From: Paramarasmius palmivorus
Lineage: Eukaryota > Basidiomycota > Agaricomycetes > Agaricales > Marasmiaceae
DNA length: 64,000 nt
Reading direction: 5' to 3'
Assembly: GCA_037176845.1 (NCBI GenBank)
Contig: JAYKXP010000114.1
Location: 62,001-126,000, forward strand
Below, piece by piece: positions 1,379 through 64,000 of the stretch. The translations under genes were made by a program, and so were the position numbers. Within the stretch, counting starts at the first letter, position 1. Every line of letters begins with the position of its first letter. The notes below the pieces were generated by a model that saw only the letters and a list, made by a program, of their open reading frames with translations, was not told the origin of the DNA and made no database searches.

Positions 1379-3250
1379 TCAGTTTTGCATACTCTTCTGG
1401 ATCGCTTTCCTGACAGGGTTCTGTTCAGGTGGTAATGATCCCGTCTTCTCGAGTCTATCAAACAAGACAAACAATTTCTCCATTTCCCTCTCCTTTTCCT
1501 CTTCGCTCATGTCATCCGCAGGATTACTCTTCCTATCGGGTACATAAGTCCCAGTAATCGGATTGATCTGCCTCGTTTCTGGATTGGCGAACGACATTTC
1601 CTCGTTATCCATAGATTCCCCCTCGCCATCCGGTTCCTTTCCTTTACCCTTCTCATCAGCGCTTCCGCCAGTATCCGGCGCACTCATGACACCTTTCTCG
1701 AACAAAAATCCAGCAACGTGTCCATACCCGACTTTGTTGCACAATAGGCCTGCATCTTGTCCACACATCGCATACAGCATCTCTCCAACGGCGTCCTTCA
1801 ATCGTCTGTGGTAGACCGACCCCATAAGCCTCAGGCACCTCCCAAGGAAGGTTGGACGCTCGTCTAATGGACGTTCGGAATCTCGGTCAAGATCCGGTGG
1901 TACCATCCAGTCGAGTATACGCTGACGAGTGGAGGCGTCTCCAAGGCATAAGCGGGTCATGAGGATGACGAGCGGTGAGAGAATGTCATCCAGATCATCG
2001 TCAGGATGAAGTGAGCTAGCATGGTCGCGAACGGAGGTGTCATCGGGGGACTTTGTTCCCGGAAAGTATAAGGCGAAGCATTCATCGATAAGATCTCTCG
2101 TCCGTTCCACAGCATCTGGTACTGGTGACTCGTCGGTTCCGAACCAGTCATCCAGCACTGACTCGTTGACAGGTATGGTGATTAGACAATGTATCACATT
2201 CGTGAGCGGGGAAGCGAGTGGTGTTGGTTTGGCGCTGGGGAGACCGTGGTATACGCGCAGAAGAGGTGAGATAAATCCATTGAGTTTGGAACTCCAGAAG
2301 TCACCCATGACTTGAGACGAACTGTCGGACATTGAGGTTTGTGGTTCGCATTCTACGAGCTAGGTCTTCCATAAGAACGCTGTTGAAAACTCAGCAAGGA
2401 GAAACATGCCTTGGGGTAATGCAGTAAAAGATTGAACGAAAGCTTCAGTAAGTCTGCTATGGCTTCCTTAGACATGTTCGTGCCTTTCCGGTGCTCACTG
2501 AGCATGAGATCTAGCTTCGAGCCAATGACCTCGCTGATATTTTGTCCTTCATGTTCGTCTTCGACAAGAGAAATGACGAAGGGCGATGCTGACACAGTTG
2601 CAAAGAATAATATGCGAGCTAGAACAAACATCTGGTCTGGATGTGTGCATTCCTACGTGGGTGTTGATGAGAACCATGAGACATAAATGATACCAAGCAC
2701 TCACGATCAGGCTCTTGACGCAAATCTCTCCTCCATTAACCTCCTTCACGGTGAATATCTTTCGAGATTTATCAATGAGGAGCATCGTATTCGCTATGCA
2801 TCGAAGCGCTTCAGATGAAGCTTCAACATCATCCTTCAAATCGACAGAGAGGGTAAGAAGCGTTGACAATCCAGCAGGAGTAGCGAGTTGTTCTGCGCCT
2901 TCGGGTTTTTTCCCCAACGTCTTGACTGCAAGTAAGGCCTTGGCCGCATCTATTTAAATTAAGTCACTTTGAGAAAGACTGCACAAAAGCAGACACGAGC
3001 GATGCGTACCTTGGCTGGTTAACCTCGAATCTGGACCTCTGCTCTTCAGATCAGACAATAGAACCTCAATTAGCTTCACGCGAGTTGTATCGTCGACTGT
3101 CCATGGAAGAGCTAAGGAAGACATATGAACTCCCGTTCTTCTGAGCAAAGAAGCTAGCCTACCGTTGATGATCAACGTCAACACTTTGGATACATCGGAT
3201 CTGCTTGACGATGGGGAAAGAGCGGTGTAAGAGGCTAGCAAATCGCCCAT
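1379..3250 (-). CDS. RIC8: RIC8/synembryn-type G-alpha chaperone and exchange factor
   Basis: RIC8 proteins fold nascent G-alpha subunits and act as non-receptor exchange factors for them in the cytosol and at the plasma membrane. Four exons (3250-3010, 2949-2705, 2631-2410, 2359-1379) encode about 562 residues, normal for fungal RIC8. The N-terminal exons give armadillo-like helices. The C-terminal exon carries the hallmark segments VMGDFWSSKL, NPITGTYVPD and, near the end, EKEREMEKLFVLFDRLEKTG. The third intron (2360-2409) begins with GC: the donor reads AAG|GCATGT, and only this choice joins HYPK to LVECEPQ in frame. The two exons before it use GT donors. The start at 3250 is the first ATG of exon 1 and fits the family N-terminus. 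Identification is strong; in fungi the protein supports cAMP signalling, growth and mating through heterotrimeric G proteins. Confidence 0.93.
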
Positions 3251-35300: not shown

Positions 35301-38300
35301 ATGCTACCGTCTGCGAAAGCAGCGGCAGCCCAGCAAGCTTTTGCTTCCGATCCAAAATACAAAAAGTACACGCAACAGGTCGAGAAATGTCTGAACTCGT
35401 TCGACAATGTTCATGAGTGGGCGGATTGTATAGCGTTCTTAAAGCAATTGTTGAAGGTGAGTAATGGTATTCTCTGTGGTGTGGTATTAGACTTCTAATC
35501 TATGTTCTTTTTTTTGCATAGACATTTCAGTCCTACATGCAATTCAAAGAGATACCTCGGAAGTTGATTGTCGCGAAACGTCTATCTCAGTGCCTCAATC
35601 CTGCCCTACCGACGGGTGTACATCAGCGTGCGTTAGATGTTTATGCTCATATACTAGCGGTGCTTGGAGTGCGTAGTCAAAACTTTGTATTTCCGACGTG
35701 TTTAGCTAACCTGGTTTTCAGTCGGAAGGTCTGAAGCGCGATCTGGCAATCTGGTCTTCAGGCTTGTTTCCCTTTTTCGAGTATGCAGCAACATCTGTCA
35801 AGGCGAGCCCTGCACGCAATGGAATGATACATCTACTGACACATTACAAACAGCCAACACTACTGAACCTGTACGATACACACTACCTTCCATTACAATC
35901 CGGTCTTCGCCCTGTAATGAAGTCGTTCATACTTGCGTTATTGCCTGGACTTGAGGAGGAAACTGGGGAATTCTTCGAAAAGGTACGTTGCCCTGTTTTA
36001 GTTCGACCGCCTGTTCTTACCGATAATGCTAGGTGTTATCCCTATTAGATCGTTTATCCGGAACAGTATCACCCTCATTTTTCTTCCAAAACATATGGCT
36101 CGTCATGCTGACAACTCCCTCCGCTCGCGGAACCTCTCTCAATTTCCTCTCCCGGCGTTTACCACAACTACACGGACTGGAAGGTATTTTCTCCTCAGCA
36201 CTCGTAACTTCACCTTAATGAACGATAAATGCATAGACATTACAGCTATTGTCGGTCAGGATATTGGCCTTATGATTCGAGCATTCTCAGCTGCTCTGGA
36301 GGATGAAAACCTACTTGTTCGCCGTAGCGCCCTCGACCTACTCCTCCAGTCCCTACGAGTCGACAGCAACGCCATTCGGAAGGCTTCGCCTGAAGATCGC
36401 GCTATCATCATGCGAGCCGCGGTATGCGTCGTGCTTCGTCGGGATCTTTCTCTGAACCGCCGATTGTATTCCTGGCTGCTGGGCCCAGAGGAGAAAAGTG
36501 ACCGTCAAATCGAATATCTCAAATCCAATGCACTGGATCTCTTGAGCGGAACGCTCAAGGAGGATATGTTCTCCCCATCAGATGACTACAGCGAGTCCAG
36601 GCCTTTTAAGATATTGATCTCGTTGCTGGACAAATGGGAAATAGGGTCTGTGTTGACTGAGGTTTTGATATACGATTCCTTCAAAGCTATAAAACATCTC
36701 ATTGAAAAGTCACCTGATGGGAGCGAGGATGTATGTTCTAAAAGCCTTTTGCCAGTGTTGTTGCTCATTTCGCCTCTGCAGGTGGTCATGACTGCTAGCA
36801 CCCTTTATGAAGCCGCTGAGCCTCAGATCGTTTGGAAGGAACTACTTTCTGCTGCGTTCAGCAACATTACGGGAAATGGAGACCAGTATGAAGTCAGTCT
36901 GCTTCCAAGTCATCTCCGCGTCTTTGACTAACTAAATTTTTTACAGGCGATAGACATGGTTCTATTTGTTCTGAAAACCTTTTCCCAAGACGAGGAAATT
37001 CAGACGATCCATCTACCTTTAATTTTCACTGCGGTATTGGATTTGGTGTTGGTAAGCTTTCAATTCATTCTGGAATGGGTTTGGAATTGATCTCCTCTTA
37101 GCACGAAATTAGGAACGACAATAGCAAAGCGACATCTCCCTTGGTGCAAAGGACCCTAGCACTGCTAGGTGTCATGCTCCGTCAGATTCCCCATACCGCC
37201 CTGTTACATCGGCCCGAAGTAACGAGTGGAATCCAAGAAGCAAGCGAGTCTGAGCGCCCTTACAAGTTTGCCTGCACGTTTTACGGCTTGAAGCCAAACG
37301 TTGAGATGCCAGAACCTACAGGCTCATTCACCAAACCGTTCGGTTCTGCTTTCGAATCCTTGATTGGTCTAAGCCTCAAACTATCGCAGATATTGCTCAC
37401 AAGTCCGAAGGAAGTTAACCTCGCCCGGGAACACTTCGCACAATCTCTTTTGCTGATTGACAGATTGGTCGGTCGGCTGAACTCGCGTTTGGATTTGGAG
37501 TGGGACCCAGAAAAGTGGCTTTCTGTTGTTCTTGAAACTCTAGGTCATAATGTGAGTCGCGTCTTTCTTCCCCAAATCGCGTAAAGTCTTACTAGATGCT
37601 TTAGTCCGTAAATTTTACCGTCGTGGATCGGATAGTGTCTCTCATCGTTGCGCTCTATCAAACGAAAGCGCTAGAACCCAACATTGCCATCGACAATCGG
37701 ACGACTATATTCAAGATGGTTACCCGGCTCCTCTCATATCTAAGACCTCATTGTGCCGTGTATCATGCTCGAGCTGTTAGCTTGATTTGGTCACTGGTTG
37801 CCGCTACCGACAGACCGCATGTCGAATCAATTCTGGCTCAAACAATGGCGTCTTCAGAGTCGGCGAGTGTCCAAGAGGCTTACGAGGCTTTTGGAGTTCT
37901 GTGGAGACTAACGGGTAAGCAAATTCCTGACTGCCTGAGGTATCACTAATGGACGTTATGCAGAGGATAACCTCTCCCCTGGCTTCAAGTTCAAAGTCCC
38001 AATGATGATTGTGCTTGATGCCTTGAAGGATGACGATCCTAGGCTGCGTCGTGTTGGGGAAACCTGGATGCGCTGTAACCTTAAGTCCTACATACGGTGA
38101 GTGACCCAATGATATCGTTGTCGGAATCAAGTCTAAGGATAACCACCTCAGTGTGCTTGATCCAATACTATTCGAACTCCTGGATCCGTCCATTCACCGA
38201 ACCCTTACGAGCATGAAAGTTTCAGGCAGAGAAATTACAAGCTACTCGTACGAGCGACCCTTTGATCAACGATATATATACCATCTCTTGGAGATGCTCC

Positions 38301-41840: not shown

Positions 41841-42074
41841 TCTGGATTCTATTTTGTTATCCTATGCTACAATTGATACCTCGCTGTCTTCGGACACGCT
41901 CGGATACCTCATCTTCACCCTCAAGTCGGACAATGGCCATCTAATCATCATGCATCGTGTACTATAGCTCCTTTTACTTACATAGCCAGTTCTTATTGTC
42001 GCCGTCGGGTCACACATCGCGTACGCGAGCTGTCACAACCATGTCACACTCAAGCATCTTTGTTCCTAACGTCC

Positions 42075-45000
42075 ATGGAGTCAACTGAGGAGATTCTCAG
42101 AATCGAAGATTGGGACCATTATAGAGGGCTGAATATTGAAGATGAGAAACCCCTCGTCTCTCCTCTAGCTGATATCCGAGTATGTGTCTCAAATTCTTGC
42201 ATATTAATTCGACCGTGGGCCATCACCCTGACTTTGATACGCACAGGATGGTTTGGACAGCGCTTTGGCTGGGGAGTTTCAGTTCGATGGTACTTTTGCT
42301 CACTCTACCACGTATTTTGACGCACCAAATCCGTGTCTTCACCTCGAGGGACTCGGACCCATTGGATTACCACTAAATGATGTGCAAATACGGATGATTA
42401 TTGAGTCTTCGACGCCCGGTATCATTGCAGAGGCGGAGCAGGGTGTTTGGAAATTTCCAGGTGATAAGGTCAGCTTAACTCTTGTGCATTGTTTGTATCC
42501 TGAACCTTGCTACAGATCACCTTTGAACACGCTCCCTGGAATGACTGGTTCAAGAAAACTGCAGTCGCCTCCCTTCACACCTCCTTGGACGCCTCTGTTT
42601 CCCCCAATGTTGCAGAGCAGCACTTGAAGTATCTAGTCATACGAGGACCGCATACTGGGTGTGTCTAAACTCCTTGTTCGTGGGAGTTTCGGTCTGATGA
42701 ATTCTGCCTCATCTCCAGCAGTCAGTCTTATACAGACAAGTAACGTCTCTTTCTGGCATCAACACCTCAGCTCTCTCATGTCTTTCTTTACAGCGTCACC
42801 GAAGGTGGTCGTCAATATGGATACTTATCGATCATTTTACCTTCTCGTCATTCCGGGGGAGACATACACTTCACTTACCAGGGAAAGGAAAAAGCCTTCA
42901 CAACAACAGGGCAAAATGTGCTGTCTACTATTGCTATTGGCGCGTACTCTACGGTGAAACAGAGTCTTGACCCTGTCCAATCCGGATATGTCGTATATCT
43001 GTACTACGAACTCTCCTGTCTCAGCGAAGCACATGTCATCCCCCGACTCCCAGAATTGGTCGTCGGAAATACACAGCTTCACCACGTCTTTCGATCATGG
43101 AGACAAATACTGGACAGCCGGAAGGGCACTTCACCGGAAGGTGCGATCGACATCGATGGAGAGGAAGGGGAGGGGGAAGAGCAGGTTCCTGATCTTCTCA
43201 TCTGTCTTTTGGAACGTGAATATTCCACTGTCACTTTCAAAGCTGCTTCCCTACAAGGCGCCGACCGTCTCATGTTGACCCAGATCGCACCCTTTGCCAA
43301 ATCCTATGGGTTCGATCTCCACTTGGCAAAAGTTGTCTATACGGAATCGGGAGGCGCAAGCCTTGGCAAATATGGGAGATCCAGACATCACGGCTACGGA
43401 TGTGGATATGGATGTTGTGGATGCGATGACTCGGATGACTATTCGGATGAAGACATTGACGCTGACGATCTCGAGATGGAAGACACAGACGAGTATTCGA
43501 TCGAGATCAACAACGTTGTTGCGCTAGATGGTATGCCCTTGATCATCAGTGGCTCCGTCGTAGATGACCTGGTAGAACGCAACGACAACGGGCAGCTGTT
43601 CGTGAATGGCTGTATAACTGACCGAACACGCAGTTCGGACTTCGAACGGTATGATAGGGAGGTACGTGTCTGGAATCCTTTCAGCGGTCGATTTCTCACC
43701 CATTATTGGTGAAGTCGGGTACGCTCACCCACAGTGAGTGATTCTACACTTGGTTTGAGGCCATTATGTGCTAACTGTACCGGTCATATAGCCTATTCTA
43801 GCAAAGTGTTTCTTATAACACCTACGCAATCTCCTCGAGTACGATTCTCCATTGGAGCTATTGGCTCTTTCGCAAGCCAAGCTCTCGTCAGTTCACTGTC
43901 CGAAACCCCCACCTTGCGGGAACACAGACTGGTCGAGGCTTTATTGGAGTGGGTGAAGACGAATACTTTGGATGCCGTGGGCTTGACGCGTGCCTGCTCT
44001 TGTTTGCGCGAAAGCGCCGATCGTTGGAATGATGTCGGTCTTTTCCTTCGCCTCCTCGAGAGTTGTGGGTCAAAGCGGATCTTGAGCTTGATCGGGGTTG
44101 ATGGCCTTTGTTCAGCCTACCAAGCTTTTGATTGGGGCCAGCTACAAGAGAAGTACGCACTTGGGCTCTGAACCTGGGCTTTCATTAACTTGAAGGCCTC
44201 TAGGTATACTGAAGCGTTTGTCAACGAATCCTCGAATGATTTGAGGATGAAAATAGTTGATCGATTACTCGCCACTGCCACAAGCAACGAAGACAGCGTC
44301 GTGATAGAATGGTGTAATACACAGCGGGAGGAATCGCTCAGAACTTTACAAAAACTAGACATTCGCGAAGTTGATTCCGTCGCCTCACTATTGTTGTCAA
44401 AGAAGAACTCGACTCAATATCTGCGTGATACGTATGTGCTCTTATCCTTCCTTACTGTGTCACCATGAGTCCTCACTCTCTGCTAGGTTCTTACCTCATC
44501 TCCGGACCATTCAGCCGTCTGATGTGACCGTGTGGACGGCTCTACTGGCTCGTCTGCAAGAAGCTACCGAAGGCTTTTGTCAGGTTGACAAAGATGAAAT
44601 GTTACAGATCATCCAAGACTGCGTCCGTCATCTAGCTTCCACAGCGGAACCTTTCCCGACTTGCAAGAAAGGAACAGGATATGGCTACTATTTTGGCGAG
44701 GCGGATACGGTTGAACCTATCCTAGACATCCTCCGGCTTTGCATTAGGTTCAATACACTGGATACGATCAATGGCTTCTTCACTCGTATGTGGAATGGGC
44801 GTGCAGCACAGGATGCCGCTCATCCTCAGCGGCTCGCCCTGTGTCACTATACGTCATTGGTGAATCGAGTTCCCGCTATCCTCAAGGACCAACATCCACA
44901 CGTGAAGAGAAGCTGCGCCATCCTTTTCGAGCAGGCTTTCCAGCTCCTGCTTCCCAACTATCAATCCAACGTCATGACTACTCGAGCAGCACTACAAAAC

Positions 45001-46085
45001 ATGGAAGACCCTATTAGTGCCCTCAAACAATGGTATATCTCATTCTATGAGCTTGGCTTTGAATGCTGAATTCTGCTCATCAGGCTGACGGCTGATTGTC
45101 TGAAGAAAATGGACCGACGCTCTGTCGAGGATTTGGCGAAGTGGGTGTCCAACACTCTTCGAAGCAAGGCCACGACACAGGAATCACAAACCCAAGTTCG
45201 AGAAGCACTTGAACTGTGCTTACGCCGGGCAGTAGGAGCATTTGACGTCCTGACGCTCGGTGGCTATTCCCCTTATAGCACCTCCTCTGGGATTGATCTA
45301 CTCGAGTTCTGCTTTACGATTCAACTGCCCTCCCGTGTCAATATCGTATTAGCCAAGTTTTTGCAGCCCCCCAAAGCACGGGAGCCTGACTACATCAAGA
45401 AGGGATTGGTTTCGGTACTCAAGGGTCTGCCGGGATTCCTTGACAAGCACAAGCACTCTCTCAGACAGCCACCCTTTTCAATCTTTGCGGCAGAGGTTAC
45501 AAGAGGGTTTATCCGGCATGTACTCGGACAGAAGCCAGCTGAGGCAGTACCCATCAACGAGCTAAAGGCGGTTGGCTGCGGGTGCATTGTCTGTAATCGT
45601 CATCTCATTCCATTCTTGATTGGACAGGATAAAATATTATCTGTACGCGAAAAGCAGAGTGTTCGGACACATATCGAACAGCGGGTACGGCAAAAAGCTA
45701 TGAGGTGGGGCAATTTTACCTTCAGTACCCACCGATATGGTAGTCCACATACCTTACAGGTGAACTTTGGTTTTTGCCTAATTCACCAGGTCAGCCTAAT
45801 GCTTCTGTATAGATCGAGAAGCCACAACGACTTGTCGCCATGGGACAATGGCCTAGCCACCAGATCGAGGCCCAGGCTATTCTCAAGATTCTTGGATCAA
45901 CTGAAGATCAGCAGCAAATCCTGGGCAAGGATTATCATTGGGTCGTGGGTGTTGTTTCAGGTACTGCTGCGCTACCACCAATGGCAGAGGCCTCGGTGTC
46001 ATCCACCGCAAGTAACAGGATGTCAAAGCGTCCCCTGACTTCACAAAATGGGGGCAACGATCCAAAGAAGCCTCGAACTGGCTGA
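42075..46085 (+). CDS. Large Fe2OG-dioxygenase-like protein with apparently degenerate metal site
   Basis: Starts MESTEEILRIEDWDHYRGLN and has many exons, about 1000 residues. The N-terminal part matches a basidiomycete family annotated as 2OG-Fe(II) oxygenase/prolyl-4-hydroxylase-like: FQFDGTFAHSTTYFDAPNPC, LEGLGPIGLPLND, ITFEHAPWNDWFKK, YGYLSIILPSRHSGGDIHF and SLDPVQSGYVVYLYYELS. Where active members carry HxD after the substrate strand, this protein reads SYTDN; where they carry the distal His before the SGYR motif, it reads STVKQSLDPVQSGYV, with the Arg also replaced. A Gly/Cys cluster (GYGCGYGCCGCDDSDDYSDED) leads into a highly acidic stretch. The C-terminal two-thirds is alpha-helical with a GCGCIVCNRH cysteine pair-type motif near residue 870, and ends DPKKPRTG, a possible nuclear signal. 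Function is unknown; a non-catalytic scaffold is plausible. Confidence 0.75.
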
Positions 46086-46526
46086 CTTTCTTCGGGGGCC
46101 GTATTCCATCTTTGTATCCTACTACGCTTAATATATTAATGTAAGTAACGCATGATTATTCAAGTTACTGTCTGAGGGGTCGAATGCTAGCAGGTTCCCC
46201 TTTTGATCCTTTGATCTTGCTTTTCCAGACCAGGCTCGTATGTTTTCTCAGAAGAGAAAAACTCATCTTGCGTTCTCCCGTTACGACCACCAGTATTTGA
46301 CAGAATTCGAGCTCGTAGAACAATAGCAATTCAGGCGAGAAGTGCAAACGCGCGAGCCCAGAACACGATCGATCTAATTGTAGGCAAGGCTTCTATCCGA
46401 TCTCATCGACGTCGAACATATACTCGCTTGCATTTGCATATATAAGGACACGAGACAGACCACACCAAACAGGATATCCTCTTCCGTCGCAGTTCAGCTT
46501 TCTTTTCAATACGCGTACGGCAAAGC

Positions 46527-48154
46527 ATGGTCCCGACCGTTCCAACTACCCTGAATGTTGTTGCCCGTGCCGCAGGAAGTTCAAGTACGATTCCACCCCC
46601 AACGGCTGACCAGATTGCAGTCGCACGAGTAGTAGAATCCATGTGAGTATGAAGTTCTTGAAATCTCTCTGTCAATTCGAACATAGTTATATAGATATGG
46701 ACCGTCTATCGTTGGGATTCTCTTCGCCATGATCCTTTATGGTGTTTCGATTACTCAGGTTCGGAATTTCCTAGCATTATATCCCTTTTGGACTGAAAGA
46801 TGGAACTGTGTAGATGTATTTCTATTTCAGAACGTTCAAGGAGGACAAATGGTGGATGAGGTACCTTGTTCGTGGACTTTAGAAGGCTAACGCAACTTCC
46901 TTGCAACCTACTCAATGCGGCTTTCTGCAGCTATTCCTCTTGCTCTTTCTCGACACGTGTATTGTCATATTCGACTTTCAATTCCTGTACGAAACGCTCG
47001 TGAAGAATTTTGGTGTGTCCACCTTTCTCGTCCAATGGAGATATTTATAACGTTGATGTGACTTTCCCTTTATTCAGGCTTCCCTTCAACAGCTGCGAAA
47101 GCGGGCTGGGGTGAGTACTCTTGTGCGGAATGAAGTGTTATTCATATAACTTACAACACGGTTTTAGCCTTTGGTGTTAGTGAGTGGTAATCTACTTGGC
47201 CAGAAGAATTGTCACCAATGACCGGGTTCCGCTATGATATAGACCGAGGCTTGACTGTACGTGATATCCTATACAACTCCCGAATTTCGTCATTGAAATG
47301 GCCGTGTAATCAGGGTCTTGTTGGAGCCTTCGTGCAATGCTTTTTCGCGTGGCGCGTTCAGAGGCTTACAGGTATCAAAGTAATGACAGGCCTAATTGTC
47401 GTCTTGTCACTCGTCGGTCTCGGTGCATATCCTAGATCTACATTTCAGACACCTCGATTACTTATGAAGGCCTTAGGTGGTTCTATTGCCTTATCTATCA
47501 CATTGGCACAGGTCACTTTTGCCGATTTCGATGCATTCAAGATCAGTGCAATCGTTTGGCTCATTGCCACTGCAATTGCCGACATTACTATCACGTTCTG
47601 CCTCGTTTGGTTCTTGGTGAGTCGCTGCGTTATTGATGATTAGAACTGGCCCTGAAGAACTCGCTTGTAGAGAAGCAAGAAAGGAGGTATCAAACAAAGC
47701 AACGAAGTCATCGACCGAATCATCCGATGTGAGCTCTAATGTTCGTTTCCCCCAGAATCTGACCCCGCTTTCAGTGACAATGGAGACTGGTGCATTAACC
47801 TCAATTTTCGCCATTATGGATCTCGTCTGTTATCTGACCATGGGTAAAGTCAGTGCCCTTTTGTTGGCTATATCCTAGTTTTGTGACAATCTTATCCAGA
47901 TCAACGGTGCTCATATCACTTTCCAAGTTATTCTCTCGAAACTGTACATCAATTCTCTTTTATCGACACTCAATTCCCGTACGAGGCCTGACGGTGCTAG
48001 CACTGGTGGCAATACGAAGACGCCGGATGCATATGCACTGTCAAACAGAATTGACGCTACACAGGTGTTTGTTACGGTTGACCGTGAGGTTGAAGGCGGT
48101 AGTAAGGGCAGCTGTGAAATCCAAGATAGGAAGATGATGAATGTTTCTGTATAA
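46527..48154 (+). CDS. DUF6534-type seven-helix integral membrane protein
   Basis: Encodes the common agaricomycete multi-pass family. The start MVPTVPTTLNVVARAAGSSS is soluble, followed by IYGPSIVGILFAMILYGVSI, TQMYFYFRTFKEDKWWMRLF, LLFLDTCIVIFDFQFLYETL, then GLVGAFVQCFFAWRVQRLTG, VMTGLIVVLSLVGLGAYPRS, ISAIVWLIATAIADITITFC, TGALTSIFAIMDLVCYLTM and SKLYINSLLSTLNSRTRPDG, the usual C-terminal domain end. The cytosolic tail is polar and ends RKMMNVSV. The exon 1 acceptor is the second of two close AGs (TATATAG|ATATGG). It sits between two paralogues of the Fe2OG-like family on the same strand. Function is not known for the family; transport or sensing has only been suggested. Confidence 0.85.
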
Positions 48155-48396
48155 GATCTGGGGTTACAACATACTTACCTATTTTCTATGATGATACATC
48201 ACTGGTCTCTGTCTACTGTAGTCTCGCTTGTTTTTCTCTTCCTCTGGAATGTACTTGTGGAGATTCATTTTGCGGCGTCTATGTGGCAAGCTTTTCGTAA
48301 CCCGAGGCCCTGAGCGCTCACGCCACACGTCGCGTGATGATTTACATACGCGATATGTCACACTACTGTCACACACGTACTTCATCAACAGCACGC

Positions 48397-50733
48397 ATGG
48401 GCGCCAGTGAGGAGAAACCCAGTATCGAGGAATGGGGCGACTACGAGGGCCAAAATGCTGAAGATGAGAAGCCCCTATTGTGTCCCGTGGAGAATCTCAA
48501 GGTATGTTAGTTCTACTTGCGGAATGATTCATTATATTGAGTCATATTTAACGCAGGAAGGTTTCAACAGCGCGCTGTCAGGAGAAGAGTTCGGTTTCAA
48601 GGGTACATTCGCTCATTCAATCACATACAAGGACGCGCCGAACCCGTTCCTTAACCTTCAGGGAATTGGTCCCATTGGAATTCCTCTAAACGAAGTGCAG
48701 TCATCCATGATTATTGAGTCATCGGCACCTGGTATCATTGTAGACACGGATCAGGGTATTTGGAAATTCCCTGGAGAGAGGTTGGTTATTCGTGATTCTC
48801 AGTAGTAAAGAACGCCACTAATGGCAAACATCGTTAGGTATACCGATGCATTTGCTAACGAGTCCTCGAACCACTGGAGATCAAGATGGCTGGATCAAAT
48901 GCTCGTTGCTGCCACAAGTTCGGGAGACTCTACTGTGGTGGAATGGTGTATCATCCAGCGGGAGGCAATGCTTGACATCTTGCAGACACTGAAGACCAAG
49001 GACGTTGAATTAGTGGTCTCGCTACTACGGTCCAAGAACGATCCGACTCATTATTTACGTCACACGTTCGTGCGCGTTGCTATCTCCATATCCAAGCTCA
49101 CCGCTTTGCTAGATTTATACCCCGCCTCTGGGAAATGCGGGTATTTGATTTAGCTGTATGGACGACTTTGCTCGCCCAATTGCAAGAAATCACTCAACTG
49201 CCTTCATGCCCATTCAACAGAGACGACTTATCCCAGTGCCTCAAAGATTGTGTCTGCCGCCTAGCCTCTATAGTAGACCCTTTTCCCTGCACGGACGACC
49301 GCAAAAAACATCTATGAATGAACCTGTCATAGATGTAATTCATCTCTGCATCCGATATGATGCATCGGACATGATCAAGACGCAATTCCTCCGCATGTGG
49401 GAAGGACGGACAGCGCAAGATGCTACTTATCCTCAGCAGCCTGCTGTATCTTATGTGCGCCTCTTGGATCGGCTACCTGCCATCATCGAAGATAAAACGC
49501 CTCAAGTGAAGGACAGCTGCGCTGTCTTCTTTGAGCATGCCCTTCAGCTAATGCTGCCAAAGTACTCATCTTATCTCAATAGTGCCGAAACGGCACTGCA
49601 GAACATCCAAGATCCTATCGGTGTACTCAAGCGATGGTACGATCCCACTCTCTGGCAGGGCGCTTACTATCCACATTGATCTGATGTCTTCGTATTATAA
49701 GTTGACAGCCGAGTATCTCAAAACGATGGATCAAGGTACTGTGGAAGACTTGGCAAAGTCATTATCCAACACCCTCCGGAGCAAAGTAACAACTCAAGAG
49801 TCACGGGCCCAGCTCGAAGAGATACTCGAGCTATGCTTGCGTCGTGCGGTTGAATCCCTGTACGTGAGCTCCAGTAGCTCCGAGTCCCAAGGAGCTTCAT
49901 ACCAGTATCGACTCAGTCCCTCTGCTGTGATCGATCTACTTGAACTCTGTCTTACAATCCAACTTTCGTCTCGCATCGACATTGTTTTGGCCAATTTCTT
50001 GCAACCTCCAAAAGCGGACGACACCGGATACATCGAAAACGGACTGGCCTTGGTACTCCAGGCATTGCCAAAGTTCCTCACCGAACATGACCTTTCTCTT
50101 ACACAAGCACCGTTTTCGGCTTTTGCGGCAGAGGTGACGAGGAAATTCACTCAACGTGTCCTGGGACAAAAGCCAGCGGACATGATACCTATTGACGAAC
50201 TCAAAACCGTCGGGTGTGGATGCAAGAACTGCAGTCGTTATATTGTCCCGTTTTTACCGGGACAAGACGCGCGTCTTTTTATTAGCGAGAAGCAGAGCAT
50301 TCGAACACACATTGAAGGACAGGTACGGGAGAAGGCAATGACTCGGAAGTGGGGCACATTCACCTTTACCACTCATCCTCGGCCTGGTCACCCATATACC
50401 TTGGAGGTGAGCTACTTCTTGTCTGGTCCGTTATAGCTAAACAGATGGTGTGTGTAGATTGAGAAGCCACAGCGACTCGCAGCTATGGGACAGTGGCGCC
50501 ACAACCAAACCAAGGCCCAGACTCTTCTCGAGGTCCTCGGAGCCGTCCAAGATCAGCAGCGTATTTTGGGAGAGGATTATCATTGGGTCGTAGGCGTTAT
50601 TTTGGGTACTGCTGCGCCGCCGCCTGCTGCAGCGGTCCTGGCGTCATTCTCCACAAGGGACGGCGCAGTGCTCAAACGGTCGCTGAGCTGTGAGAGTGAA
50701 GTCCATGAGCCCAAGAAACCTCGGCTTGCTTGA
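48397..50733 (+). CDS. Core-deleted paralogue of the Fe2OG-like protein
   Basis: The N-terminus MGASEEKPSIEEWGDYEGQN and exon 2 (GFKGTFAHSITYKDAPNPFL, GIGPIGIPLNEVQ) match the gene at 42075. The product then passes from WKFPGE directly to RYTDAFANESSN, skipping everything equivalent to about 42470-44200 of the longer gene: the oxygenase core, the Cys cluster and the acidic stretch. The join lies inside an intron (donor GAGAG|GTTGGT, acceptor GTTAG|GTATACC), so the remaining C-terminal region continues in frame: TFIPRLWEMRVFDLAVWTTL, LEEILELCLRRAVE, VGCGCKNCSRYIVPFLPG, IEKPQRLAAMGQW. One base appears missing in the A-run at 49303-49308, since frame changes there before MNEPVIDVIHLC. Retention of the long C-terminal region suggests that part has its own function. 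Confidence 0.72.
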
Positions 50734-51157
50734 CCTCATAACGCTATCTTCTGACATTGCATGTACAACTGTCGCGCCTACAGGTTCTGTATTCCACGAT
50801 CCTTTGTAACCTTTGTAACCATAATTTCTTGATAATCGAGGATCTAGATGCAAATTTGCGAAGGCGGGCCCAGTGACAGAGAGAAACTGACGCGAACAGG
50901 CGCTACTAGTCCATGTCTTCCACCAAAACACACGCTTCTTCAGATTCTCCTCTTTCATGATCACAAGGCCTCAGCCTTTCCTTTGTGTGTTGGTATTTAC
51001 GCCTCAAAAGACAATGGATCCGTTTATCAGTCATCATTTCAATGCCTTTGTCCTTTGTCTACAGTGCAAGGTCGTGTTGAGTATAAAAGGCCTCTTTTCG
51101 ATATCTCGACGGCAAACCTCTACTTCTTTCATGCTGTACGCTTAGGAGCTATCTTAA
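50734..51157. other. Short intergenic region
   Basis: 3' flank of the core-deleted paralogue and 5' flank of the relic that follows. It holds open but featureless plus-strand frames (50848-51162). No start codon usable by the relic is in frame. Confidence 0.45.
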
Positions 51158-51299
51158 ATTGAAGACTGGGAGAATTTCGGGGGACACAATGTGCTGCTTA
51201 TGGACAACGAACCGGAGTATACCTGTTATCACGGTGAGTGTCCATATGGTGTTGCGTTTCTGGAGAATTCACCAACGACCACCACTGCAGAACATTTTT

Positions 51300-51512
51300 A
51301 TGGAGGTCAATGTGCACAAAAATTAATACGGTGTTCCCGGTAATGTTTCACCGTAGAATTTTTTTCACCGTGAAATTGCCCCGGTAATCTTTCACCGTAA
51401 AGTATTTTCACCGTGAAATTGTCCCGGTAATGATATTTCACCGTAGATTTTTTCACCGTAAAATCGCCCCGGTAATGTTTTACGGTTACGGTACATAATG
51501 CCCCGGTAATGT
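51300..51512 (+). repeat. Left inverted arm with five CCCGGTAAT subrepeats
   Basis: The arm is a string of about 30-45-bp units alternating CCCGGTAAT with TTTCACCGTAGAATTTTT- and TTCACCGTGAAATTGCC-like segments. Five CCCGGTAAT copies occur, at about 51336, 51379, 51425, 51469 and 51501. Short palindromes such as TTTCACGGTGAAA arise within the units, so each arm can itself form hairpins. Confidence 0.8.
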
Positions 51513-52270
51513 TGATAGCCCTCTTTTAGCGCTCGTGGGCCTAAGTACGGCACATTCCCACGGCTTTTGGGCAGTGTTTCCCGTGTTCTAGATGACTTTG
51601 GATGAGCGCTGTACTATTTTCGAAGGTACTGACTATCAAAGGAGAGCTATAAGTACTCATTAGATCTGATAGCAAGCATAGCACTGTCAGATCAGCCAAT
51701 GCATTACAGTTTCGGCGCTTTTCCTGTTTTGGCATCTCGGCGATACTTCCAAATGCGTAACTCAGAGTGTTGCATATGCACTGAGCAAACATAAAGGGCA
51801 TCCAAATGAGCACGATACATGTCATTAGTGAGCTTGAGTCTCTGTTAACTCCTTGAGATAGGTATTATCTCTCTAGCATTGATTCCTGAGGCCTGAGACG
51901 TTGATGTCTGCACAGACTGCGCTCGGGTATCTCGGCGAAAGATAAACACTTTATCAAGTCCCTTTTGCCTTGCGCGACTTCGAAATCTCTGCTGAACGGA
52001 GTCACAACAGCAATTCTGGGATACTATCGGCAGGTGATGGGGCTCAGACAGGGCCCGTGGGTACTATTTTTGCATGTACTAGTACTCTAGAAGTACCTAA
52101 GTGGTAAGCGCCAAGCGCTCAAGCTCTTGTGCTCGATGCTCAGTGATGCCATACTCGCCGACGCATTTCTCCGGCCGAGTGATTGCCAGAGTCTTCGGCA
52201 CCTTGGCACGCACGGCTGACGCGAAGCGCCGATCAGCACATGACCTGTAAGCGCTCACGTCACCATCGAA

Positions 52271-52475
52271 TTATTACCGGGGCAGAATCTTTACGGTCAC
52301 GTAACCGTGGATTACCGGGAACAAATTTTGCGTTCACCGTAAAACATTACCGGGGCGATTTCACGGTGAAAAATTTTACGGTGAAAAATTACCGGGACAA
52401 TTCCATGGTGAAAAAAATTCTACGGTGAAACATTACCGGGACACCGTATGAATTTTTGTGCACTTTGACCAGCAT
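52271..52475 (-). repeat. Right inverted arm with five CCCGGTAAT subrepeats
   Basis: On this strand the same unit reads ATTACCGGG, again five times (about 52273, 52311, 52344, 52387 and 52431), interleaved with TTTCACGGTGAAAAATT-like segments. The match to the left arm is best in the outer ~60 bp and drifts toward the interior through unit-length differences. Confidence 0.8.
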
Positions 52476-53247
52476 ACATTTTCAAGAAGACATTGCAAAC
52501 TCTGATTTCTTATCCCGATGTACCCGATCCCCGTCTTCGACTCGATAGAATTGGCCGTTACCACCTCTAAACAACATGCCATCCAAGAGAAAATCTTCGA
52601 TATCCCAGGAGTCGACGAGGAATAGTGTGTCCGGACCTGGGGAACAAGCGAGTGTCCATTAGCTTTTCTTCAGTCAGCAAGTTCTAACGTTCACTAATAG
52701 ATTATCACTGGAAACCCTCGCTGAAACAGCTGGCTGGAGCAGACTGTGATTTCATAGCTTCGCAGCACGTTTGATATATCTATTCCATTCAGACCGACTC
52801 GATCCATGCAAAGTAATGCGTCTAGGGCTTCTGCTACTCATAAGGACTCCTTTTACAGATGTCGGACTCATACCAGACAGGTACAGCGTCGGCCGTAACT
52901 CTTGGCGAGCAGATCACGACGGTCCTATTCAAGCTCTCATACTGTGTGGATCTGTAAGCAACTGGAGGCGGCGGAAATTCTTGCTTGGGACGATCCAGGA
53001 CTAAGTAGCAGCGAAGTCTAGTTGGCGACTATTCCTGAATTACTGGGATGATAGAATGCAGGCCAGTTTCCGCCGAATCTTCCTCGAGTGGTTCCCATAA
53101 ACGCGAGCCAGTGTAGATGGTCTGGACGCTGAGAAAAGACCACGCTATGCTTTGTCTGGTGGAGTGGCCAAGGAACGTGTACTGCTGAGGAAAACCCATT
53201 GGATAACGATTACAACCAGATGGAAACGACTAGAATACAGAGGATAT

Positions 53248-59075: not shown

Positions 59076-60967
59076 TTATGTGGGCTTGTAATAGATAGTT
59101 GTTAAATACTAGACGCGGAGAGATCAGTCTTTGAACAATTACCCAGGCCAATGAGACGAACCTTCTTCCTATACCTCACGGTCTCTCCTACAGCAAGCAC
59201 ACCATTCTTAATCGCACTAGTACACAAGTGGTGCAGCACGACGTGGCTTGGGACAGGTAGCACTGACGTATCGTCAGCAATCGTCCTATTATCCACCACA
59301 GTCGGTATGGCAGGAGGTCCTCTGGCTCTGGGAGGCGACATAGGTCTCTCACTAAGACTGACTCTTGGTGGAGACATCGGTCGACTGCTCCCTGAAGGCC
59401 CAGCGCTATCAGTCGAACTCCTCGACGCAGAAACGTCCGTTCCAGAAGCCGTCGTCACCGGTAATGGCCTCTCTGGACGCTCCCTCTCTTCTCTCTCCTC
59501 AGCGGCATGCGTAGTCATCCCCAAATTCCTCTTATCTCTCTCTCTTCTCCTCTCACGTTCACCGACTTTCCCGGTCCCAGGTACCAAATTCGCACCAGCC
59601 AACGCTACGCCCTGACTCACGCCAACCTTAATCGGCTGATTCAATATCAGCTTGTCCAAGATCCTAGGTAACCTCGGCGCAGGTGGGATATTTGGGAGGG
59701 GTACGAAACCGTTCACATGTTGTGTCCGGCCTCGACCTGGCTGTTCATAGCCTTGATACGACTGTTGATGTGCCAAGAAGGCTTCTTCCTGCTGAGCAGC
59801 CTCTATCAACTCGAGCGGTATCTCCGAAGTCCACTGAGGGGTATAAGGTGCAAACTTGACTGACGCGTTAGGTTTCTCGGCAAAGTCATTATCGTCATCG
59901 TCTGTCCAGAAGGAGTAGCCCTGCCTCTGAGGTGGTGGCGATGGCGGCGAAGCTGCGGCGATTTTAGATAGTGACGTAGCGGTAGGTGGAGCACTGCCGT
60001 CGAACCCAGGACCAACTGCGACGTAATTTGCCAGCCCACCTTCCTTGGTCGACGGTGGTCGGCAAGTCGTCCGCTACGCGCCATTGGTCGTCGACTAGGA
60101 AACGAAGATGATGTGTACCAGAACGTAGGAATATGGTTGTGCTGAATGTGTTCGAGTCTGGTGATCTAAAATGAAAGTTTATGGTGTTAGCACGGTGCAA
60201 GCGAAAGGGGGCACGAAAAAAACGGCTTACTCCCTGTCCATACGCCGTCTTCCTCTCCATTCATCATCCCCTTGCCTGGCCAGGAATACATTGGTGCCTC
60301 CTCCATGCCATGATATCTTGACCATAACTTCATCGCCATCCAAGCTCTCTCTTTCCTTTTTCTCGAGGACTTCCTTATCTACCAGCTCTCCTGAAATCGC
60401 TGGCGATATTGTCTTCTTCACCGGAAGAGCCTCTCGTAAAGAAGTAAAGGGGTTATATTGTCCAGAATTCACCACATTCTCCTTCTCTTCGTCGCGCGCA
60501 GCGCCATCCTCAGTTGAAGATAGTAGTGGTGTCGTCAACGGAGACTCCTGGGTTCGATACGAGTGCGGTCGCGATTGTGTATGTTGTGACGAGACGAAAC
60601 TCGATTGCGTTGAAGGTTGCCTGGAGCTGTTATTCGAAGTCCTCTTTCGGCTTCTGTAGTCCGGATCTACAGGCTGTCCCTCGTTCCAAAATAACGATCC
60701 CTGTCGTACCTGAGGGGGAATAGGTACAGGAATACTTCGATAGGGTGTTGTAGGTTGACTGTTCTGGTATGGATTCAAAGAAAGCGGCGCAAGATCTGGC
60801 AATTCGAGCGACTTTTTCTTTGCTCTGAGCGAACGGTGAGGTCGAGGGGTATGTAAATGAGATGTTCGTTCTCGTTCACGGTCCGAATATGATTTGGGAT
60901 TGGGGTTTGGAGAAGAGAATCGTCGAAGACCGCCTCCGCCGTTCTGGGTCGATGAAGAGTTACCCAT
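59076..60967 (-). CDS. AMPK/SNF1 complex beta subunit (Sip2/Gal83-like)
   Basis: Scaffold of the SNF1/AMPK energy-sensing kinase. Starts MGNSSSTQNGGGGLRRFSSP with an N-myristoylation-type MGNxxS. After a disordered Ser/Pro/Arg-rich region comes the CBM48 glycogen-binding domain: EVMVKISWHGGGTNVFLARQ, GDDEWRGRRRMDRESPDSNT, FLRSGTHHLRFLVDDQWRVA, DDLPTTVDQG. The C-terminal ASC domain holds YTPQWTSEIP, FVPLPNIPPAPRLPRILDKL, ILN, HVVLHHLCTSAIKNGVLAVG and, after a last intron, the invariant end YLTTIYYKPT (TAA at 59076-59078). Between VDQG and ANYVAVGPGFDG the frame needs one base fewer around 60039-60046 (GGAAGG on this strand). An apparent frameshift in such a conserved regulator points to a base-calling error. 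A long linker with Arg/Glu-rich and PMSPPR repeats separates the ASC parts. Confidence 0.9.
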
Positions 60968-63327: not shown

Positions 63328-64000
63328 TTTAGAGGTCATAGAGGAGGTCGGAGAAGAAATTCAATTCTAAAATATGTTTGGAGCGAGAGCAACTTCACTG
63401 AACAGGAAACATGATGGGAGTGGGAAGCAATCCGAGAATGACGTCGACCATCCACAGCTCCCAAATAACCGTCGGATGATTACAGAAACGGCAGTTGTAA
63501 GCTTCTGATGTATTTTTAGATAACCTGTTTGTCAATAAATTGAGGGGATCAAGAGAGGATCCTTAACAATGGGGTAGTATTGAGTTATGTAGCTGGTGGA
63601 CGTCAAGTGAATCATTGTTTTCTTGGCAAGTTTGTTTTGACCTTACGTACCGGTCGCGTACTGTACTTGGGAAATGCACACGAAGAACGATTTTAGTAGA
63701 CAGCCAACGTGGTCTTGCTAATCATACAAGAGATACAAATATATCACCTAAATAGTCCTAGTACAATACACCATTCACCAAAGCCCTTCAGAACCAAGAA
63801 AATTCAATCCATGCGAGGTTTCTTCGGATTCGGTACGCTGAAACCGGAAACACCGAACCTCACCTCGTCCAAAGAGCGTTTGAGCGACCCACCGGATGTG
63901 CTGGTTGTTGAGGGTTCCCAAACTGTCGACGGATACGGTCGAGTAACTGTGCCTTCTATCATCCCGGTGATCCATGCGTAATCCTCACCGAGAATTAGCA
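63328..64000. other. Window end, no supported gene
   Basis: 5' flank of the membrane-protein gene. A plus-strand frame at 63709-63981 ends inside the window; from an internal ATG at 63811 it reads MRGFFGFGTLKPETPNLTSS, is polar, and could be coding, but I recognise nothing in it. Confidence 0.35.

Follow-up and report, generated by a model that had tools for sequence, protein, structure and literature searches.

A pseudo-oxygenase branch with apparent repeated loss of its catalytic core in the mushroom Paramarasmius palmivorus

The window analysed here is a stretch of 64,000 nucleotides from the genome of the palm-associated mushroom Paramarasmius palmivorus (C114:62001-126000, C114 being contig JAYKXP010000114.1 of a 68.3-Mb assembly; proteins encoded in the window match public P. 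palmivorus records). It contains part of a cluster of genes encoding relatives of iron- and 2-oxoglutarate-dependent (Fe/2OG) oxygenases. The first of these, gene A, carries an oxygenase core from which the catalytic residues have gone, fused to a long C-terminal part, and most genes of the branch to which it belongs lack the core altogether. We favour, with modest confidence, the view that this lineage-specific branch of a fused Fe/2OG oxygenase and alpha-solenoid family has turned from an enzyme into a scaffold; the nuclear and binding steps of such a change are suggested by a motif and by the predicted fold. Coordinates without a contig prefix are those of the window.

Results

Gene A (42075..46085, forward strand; public record VNI00_015994) has 11 exons (42075-42179, 42247-42468, 42516-42658, 42719-42739, 42794-43661, 43715-43733, 43792-44152, 44204-44431, 44487-45032, 45084-45759 and 45813-46085, the last including the stop codon), separated by GT-AG introns of 47-67 bp and forming an open frame of 1153 amino acids (aa), in agreement with the initial annotation, which was made from the sequence alone and had called the gene complete. 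Alignment of the Moniliophthora roreri protein P0002 to the genome gave identical exon borders from 42909 on, the part that P0002 covers. The public model (P0001) has 1104 aa, 49 residues fewer at three places, as it omits the 21-bp exon at 42719-42739 and two other stretches. This exon reads SQSYTDN and lies at the position where a paralogue in the same genome, C27, carries its iron-binding HxD motif (FLPHVD) on an exon of 18 bp; an 18-bp exon is present in C49 too. The following exon (42794..43661) holds the remaining degenerate core and the start of the middle region, and in it the distal His and the 2OG-binding Arg of C27 are replaced by Gln and Val, respectively.

That the family is homologous to Fe/2OG oxygenases, as the label "Fe2OG-like" had implied, is clear from the match between the cores of A and C27 (BLASTP E 2e-31, 30% identity over 208 aa). 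C27 and a metagenome protein, P0004, reach the cut-off of Pfam family PF13640 (27.2 and 31.7 bits against 27) and have the HxD motif (HVD/HRD), the distal His and the Arg all intact. Smith-Waterman scores against the active cores were 110, 113 and 84 for A, D and E (best of 500 shuffles 46, 67 and 49), whilst the similarity of J was marginal (50 against a shuffled best of 49). The HxD motif is absent from all four core-bearing genes read, A having YTD, D having HKQ, and E and J having no counterpart. The distal His is replaced by Gln in A, P0002, D and E, and in J a His stands one position off in an uncertain alignment; the Arg is replaced in five of five, by Val in A, P0002, D and E and by Ala in J. 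Judged by these residues, gene A encodes a pseudo-oxygenase, whose homologue C27 has stayed catalytically intact, and the active site appears to have been lost before the core was. The name "2OG-Fe oxygenase", borne by the M. roreri relative, is thus misleading for this branch, and the public gene models omit its tiny exons.

Profile searches did not recognise the branch. Gene A matched no Pfam family at E <= 1; PF13640 had three matches in the genome, all on contigs other than those of the gene A family, so the family profile misses the branch, and none of the four matches to PF20515 (2OG-FeII_Oxy_6) was on the contigs of the family. P0001, P0002, P0003 and P0009 were without a match in NCBIfam, and in a sequence search against solved structures the family alignment gave one weak unrelated match and P0004 none. 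No paper on the family was recognised among the titles and abstract starts of the openly licensed PMC literature, which is weak evidence given its partial coverage.

The array had been described as having three members, which proved too small. The branch forms two clusters, one on C114 (A, B, relic C, D and E) and one of seven genes on C25 (J, K, I, F, G, H and M), with at least 11 non-relic genes in all; the core is present in A, D, E and J and absent from the other seven (B, F, G, H, I, K and M). These counts are lower bounds, since the genome searches, for which three segments of A and a single segment of F served as queries, scored the best candidates only. Three protein searches, each scoring about 8000 word-sharing candidates, set no bound on the distribution of the family. 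Gene D (C114:125807-129537, reverse strand) reaches into the window with its 3' end (63807..64000), the window stopping at C114:126000, and gene E (C114:135329-138394, reverse strand) lies beyond it. Both D and E are without the CGCxxC segment found near A residues 1010-1030, and their endings differ.

In F, H and M a short first exon (of the IEDW type in F) is followed by an intron of about 50-60 bp and then by the post-core exon; a core hidden in an unread exon was considered and rejected, as such introns leave no room for it. K is open with or without splicing of its first intron and retains a remnant of a J-like exon 2, and I begins at the equivalent of A residue ~509. Translation is uninterrupted over 931 (F), 931 (H), 951 (K), 921 (M) and 685 (I) codons. 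F corresponds to the public protein P0009 (VNI00_007681; 95% identity along its full length). The core-less G (C25:387405-390441), for which no first exon was identified, has a single in-frame TAG just 5' of the CGCxxC motif, with the rest open. According to the annotation of Cylindrobasidium torrendii, P0006 and P0008 have an IEDW start fused directly to the post-core region, and P0007 starts later. An exon of 16-22 bp is kept in eight gene models (A, D, E, F, H, J, K and M), and the places of introns are kept as well. Upstream of the C25 genes the heptamer GGGTCTC lies on the coding strand 50-107 bp 5' of the start in five of five (F, H, K, J and M; 220 bp searched), with eight occurrences in these upstream regions and seven on both strands of the whole window.

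A mirror image of the core-less genes is found at C35:66623-64984 (loci L035 and L049), where a degenerate core and the middle region are present and the solenoid is absent. The HxD motif is missing there and the distal His is replaced by Phe, the Arg is kept, the 19-bp exon is shared, and the C-terminus is basic (AAKRRRIN).

Gene B (48397..50733, forward strand; VNI00_015996, P0005) comprises exons at 48397-48501, 48557-48780, 48838-49065 and from 49113 to a frame break, and continues in another frame from ~49314 to 49636 and at 49702-50406 and 50458-50733 (stop codon included). It lacks A residues ~110-580, that is, A's exons 3 to 7, so that a 57-bp intron (48781..48837) links the equivalent of A residue 109 to that of ~581. 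The junction preserves the frame; its intron is in phase 2 and that of A after residue 109 in phase 0, and exon 2 of B is therefore one base shorter there. The initial annotation had described B as having lost the core and kept the C-terminal part, which is correct, and the C-terminal pieces of A and B are 63% identical (E 1.1e-78, far beyond chance); it had overlooked the frame break. This lies at 49280..49320, where a variable loop between conserved flanks is 22 bp shorter in B than in A, and the public model escapes it by means of an intron that drops conserved sequence. As synonymous sites between A and B and between A and D are saturated, dN/dS was unusable, including the regional comparison of A and B that had been proposed as a check, and counts of changes by codon position were used instead. 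At sites where A and D agree, B-specific changes fell 58:42:97 on the three positions (p 5e-6 against equality) and A-specific changes 54:41:92, profiles that do not differ (p 0.99). Apart from the break, the C-terminal part of B has been under constraint, which may have acted before or after the deletion. A and B also have in common a pair of upstream TGTCAC boxes with a spacing of 11 bp (42030-42047 and 48355-48372; -44/-33 in A, -41/-30 in B), and none occurs in the 220 bp before D and E.

The number of core losses was addressed with two trees of 16 proteins, built from all columns and from post-core columns only. Both place A, B, D and P0002 in one clade (support 92/98 and 85/96, respectively), unite all C25 genes (100/99 and 100/100), pair J with K (100/100 in both) and set Cylindrobasidium apart (100/100); the placement of C27 and I, which have long rows, is unsure. 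In approximately unbiased (AU) tests on post-core columns, a single core-less clade was rejected (p 2e-64, and 8e-6 without B), as were a grouping of the C25 core-less genes and K to the exclusion of J (p 6e-59) and one of F, G, H, M and I with Cylindrobasidium (p 3e-4). The core-less groupings examined in another AU run were likewise rejected (p 0.001, 7e-8, 1e-4 and 2e-4). The exception was the grouping of F, G, H, M and I without J and K, which was not rejected (p 0.36), as a single loss common to these genes would predict. On the premise that a lost core is never regained, the trees imply at least four core losses, in B, in K, in F/G/H/M (perhaps with I) and in Cylindrobasidium, or three when the Cylindrobasidium records, known from annotation only, are set aside.

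Amongst the core-less genes F, G and H, differences are concentrated at third codon positions (F-H 355:318:544 over 831 codons, F-G 350:307:528, H-G 337:259:496; p <= 8e-16 each), and the core-less proteins have therefore been constrained after the core was lost. The F-H pair is saturated at synonymous sites (pS 0.76-0.80, pN 0.38-0.41). For J and K, dN/dS beyond residue 256 was 0.19-0.24 with dS 1.3-1.6; a codon-position test of K against J with four agreeing references was uninformative and slightly against constraint on K. In the intact pair of C27 and P0004, which is very distant, conservation is much higher in the core than in the C-terminal part (35/90 against 26/169 identical residues), and the branch has therefore relaxed its core relative to the rest.

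Of 16 rows compared, 13 carry a bipartite nuclear localisation signal (NLS) motif, with two basic clusters 7-22 residues apart, within their final 45 residues. The motif occurred in none of 308 windows of 45 aa taken elsewhere in these proteins and in four of 2000 shuffled tails. Its K, K and R are three of the 37 invariant columns in an alignment of eight proteins. The codons of the motif are KRPLTSQNGGNDPKKPR in gene A (46026..46076, forward strand, two codons ahead of the stop) and KRSLSCESEVHEPKKPR in gene B (50674..50724, forward strand, 3' of the frame break). Among the parts of these proteins the motif is the more constant feature, and the proteins of the family are probably nuclear. 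In two AlphaFold models the motif is preceded by an alpha-solenoid, the helices of which mostly have a predicted local distance difference test (pLDDT) score, taken by block, of 70-94. Fold searches returned nothing beyond generic solenoids, no search having started from a separately folded solenoid or oxygenase part. In E (loci L016/L048, C114:135.2-135.4 kb) and C27 (L047) a basic stretch leads into a terminal VIDLT, which looks like a SUMO-interaction motif; the C-terminus of C27 reads KRKADDVIDLT.

The third gene had been read as a relic split by a transposon, and its remnants do flank an inverted-repeat element. Relic C spans 51158-52787 on the forward strand. Its exon-1 remnant (IEDWENFGGHNV, 51158..51235) is a weak 12-residue piece (E 0.06-0.14 alone), the exon-2 remnant (YPDVPDP), matched by eye only, adjoins the element, and the exon-3 remnant (52701..52787) has two in-frame stops and is closest to gene D (E 8.8e-6). 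The element (51305..52470, 1166 bp) has inverted ends that are 90-91% identical and made of repeated units resembling CCGGTAAT/TTTCACCGT; a target-site duplication was looked for and none was definable. Its copy number is low, with 890 bp at 97% on contig C40 (C40:215027-215943) and a partial copy at C160:56913-57077.

Between A and B lies a gene for a protein with hydrophobic segments (46527..48154, forward strand, delimited from open reading frames; VNI00_015995 by numbering), outside the gene A family, of which the open reading frame at 47191-47640 had no Pfam match. Other neighbours in the window with Pfam matches are Ric8 (1382-2359, reverse strand), Dopey_N (36002-36928, forward strand) and AMPKBI (59105-60073, reverse strand).

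Discussion

The passage from enzyme to scaffold that we favour would have begun with a hydroxylase in the nucleus that held its partner by means of the solenoid. A duplication would have been followed by decay of the active site, and the dead protein, imported through its C-terminal NLS, may act by binding, as a scaffold, a competitor or a regulator of the target of the intact enzyme. The beta-barrel would have been retained where it is still part of an interface (A, D, E and J) and shed elsewhere (F, G, H, K and M). Gene B would be a core-deleted copy, constrained for most of its history and now broken in frame, and C a dead copy.

The initial annotation had suggested that the C-terminal helical part, and not the oxygenase part, is what selection keeps. 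That the core is dispensable holds up well, the best evidence being the C25 genes F, H, K and M together with Cylindrobasidium P0006/P0008 and the tree; B counts for little here, since its frame is broken in addition to the deletion. The contrast in selection between the two parts fares less well, as core-bearing members conserve the core about equally, and as C35 did the opposite, with the helical part lost and a degenerate core still in place. The prior loss of the active site and the C-terminal NLS motif had both been overlooked.

Several results weigh against the transition to a scaffold. Unordered parsimony needs three changes only, with a regain of the core in J, which may have come about by gene conversion. 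G is interrupted by a stop codon, B carries the frame break and has a tree branch about twice as long as that of A (0.57 against 0.27), and K-specific changes at conserved sites (18:26:14; J 22:13:18) have no excess at third positions. Core-bearing members keep the core about as well as the rest, with identities in core and helical part of 27/37 (73%) and 172/300 for A-P0002, 47/91 (52%) and 127/295 (43%) for A-D, 35/87 (40%) and 96/286 (34%) for A-E, and 22/91 (24%) and 73/283 (26%) for A-J. The NLS motif is absent from I, weaker in P0008 and only a short basic stretch in C27. In both AlphaFold models the oxygenase part of A lies below pLDDT 50 nearly throughout, so that a barrel fold is not readable, and the solenoid matches generic solenoids only (template modelling score, TM, <= 0.22).

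Some of these features would be accounted for by plain birth and death in a redundant family, with core loss, frame breaks and relics as successive stages of pseudogenisation and no new function for the core-less copies. The two stops in C, the break in B and the stop in G fit such a process, as do the loss of the CGCxxC segment from D and E, that of the NLS from I and the slight excess of second-position changes in K. However, F, H, K, M and I have stayed open over 685-951 codons despite the saturation of synonymous sites between F and H, third-position changes are in strong excess among F, G and H, and the intron places, including the 16-22-bp exon in eight models, have been kept along with the NLS; we thus regard birth and death as an unlikely account of the branch as a whole. 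For gene B itself the reverse has been considered, that it still works and yields a core-less protein of ~670 aa, the break being due to faulty assembly, to rare splicing or to a programmed frameshift. The in-frame junction, the otherwise open C-terminal part and a codon profile like that of A speak for this, but the break is a length difference of 22 bp rather than a one-base change in a homopolymer, no splice that saves the conserved residues was seen, and the public model loses them. A working B is accordingly rather improbable, and B is best read as a gene that broke recently, a quirk of assembly or of splicing being less likely.

Conservation of the core (52% in A-D and 73% in A-P0002), in proteins that are dead for 2OG chemistry by motif, could also mean that the core-bearing members are enzymes still, with an altered metal or cofactor site and catalysis of a new kind. 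The HxD motif, the distal His and the Arg have, however, been lost or replaced differently among members, with no common substitute for HxD, and we hold this to be very unlikely.

If the branch did turn from enzyme to scaffold, one genome would preserve a near-complete series of the transition, with C27 intact, A, D, E and J dead, B, K, F/G/H/M and Cylindrobasidium core-free through at least four losses, and C35 solenoid-free. C27 would then be a nuclear hydroxylase with a solenoid, an NLS-like tail and a SUMO-interaction-like end, and the core-free proteins would be non-catalytic nuclear binders acting on the partners of the original enzyme; we put this fuller scheme forward tentatively, as somewhat doubtful in its entirety. 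Pseudoenzymes usually retain the dead catalytic domain. Here the domain itself looks dispensable, and parallel losses seem to have removed it several times, so that the genome offers replicated natural deletions in which the functions of a fused enzyme are taken apart, with intact, dead, core-free and solenoid-free forms. For an uncharacterised family of mushroom proteins this yields a testable hypothesis, which concerns nuclear location and partners rather than a reaction.

Among the known systems closest to the branch is PF13640 (2OG-FeII_Oxy_3, fungal prolyl-4-hydroxylase-like; C27 and P0004), with which the branch shares a homologous core, the gene structure around the HxD exon and a fused long C-terminal part, whereas the gene A branch is without the iron ligands and the 2OG Arg, most of its genes are found without the core, and A itself matches no Pfam family at E <= 1. 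The helical part has stacked helix pairs in common with the HEAT/TPR/HAT alpha-solenoids, among them CRM1, Ctr9, spliceosomal chains like Clf1/Syf1, and importins; these are generic structural matches at TM <= 0.22, with no sequence relation found.

Partner binding by a dead oxygenase domain has a parallel in the uS12 prolyl hydroxylases OGFOD1/Tpa1/Ofd1, for which a second, non-catalytic double-stranded beta-helix domain, having lost its catalytic potential, is proposed to serve that purpose (PMC4396695). There the dead domain stands beside an active one, whereas the gene A branch has a single oxygenase domain, either dead or lost, and the partner-binding part would be an alpha-solenoid. That a fungal 2OG protein can be nuclear and have protein partners is exemplified by Ofd2 of Schizosaccharomyces pombe, a 2OG dioxygenase of the nucleus with histones among its interaction partners (PMC3175000). 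Unlike the gene A branch, Ofd2 is an active, single-domain member of the AlkB subfamily. The fungal Ssd1/Dis3L2 pseudonucleases lost their active site at least four times whilst other regions, and an NLS in most homologues, were conserved (PMC8097288). In Ssd1 the inactive catalytic domain stays in place, whereas in the gene A branch the domain itself appears to have been removed repeatedly, within tandem arrays of one genome.

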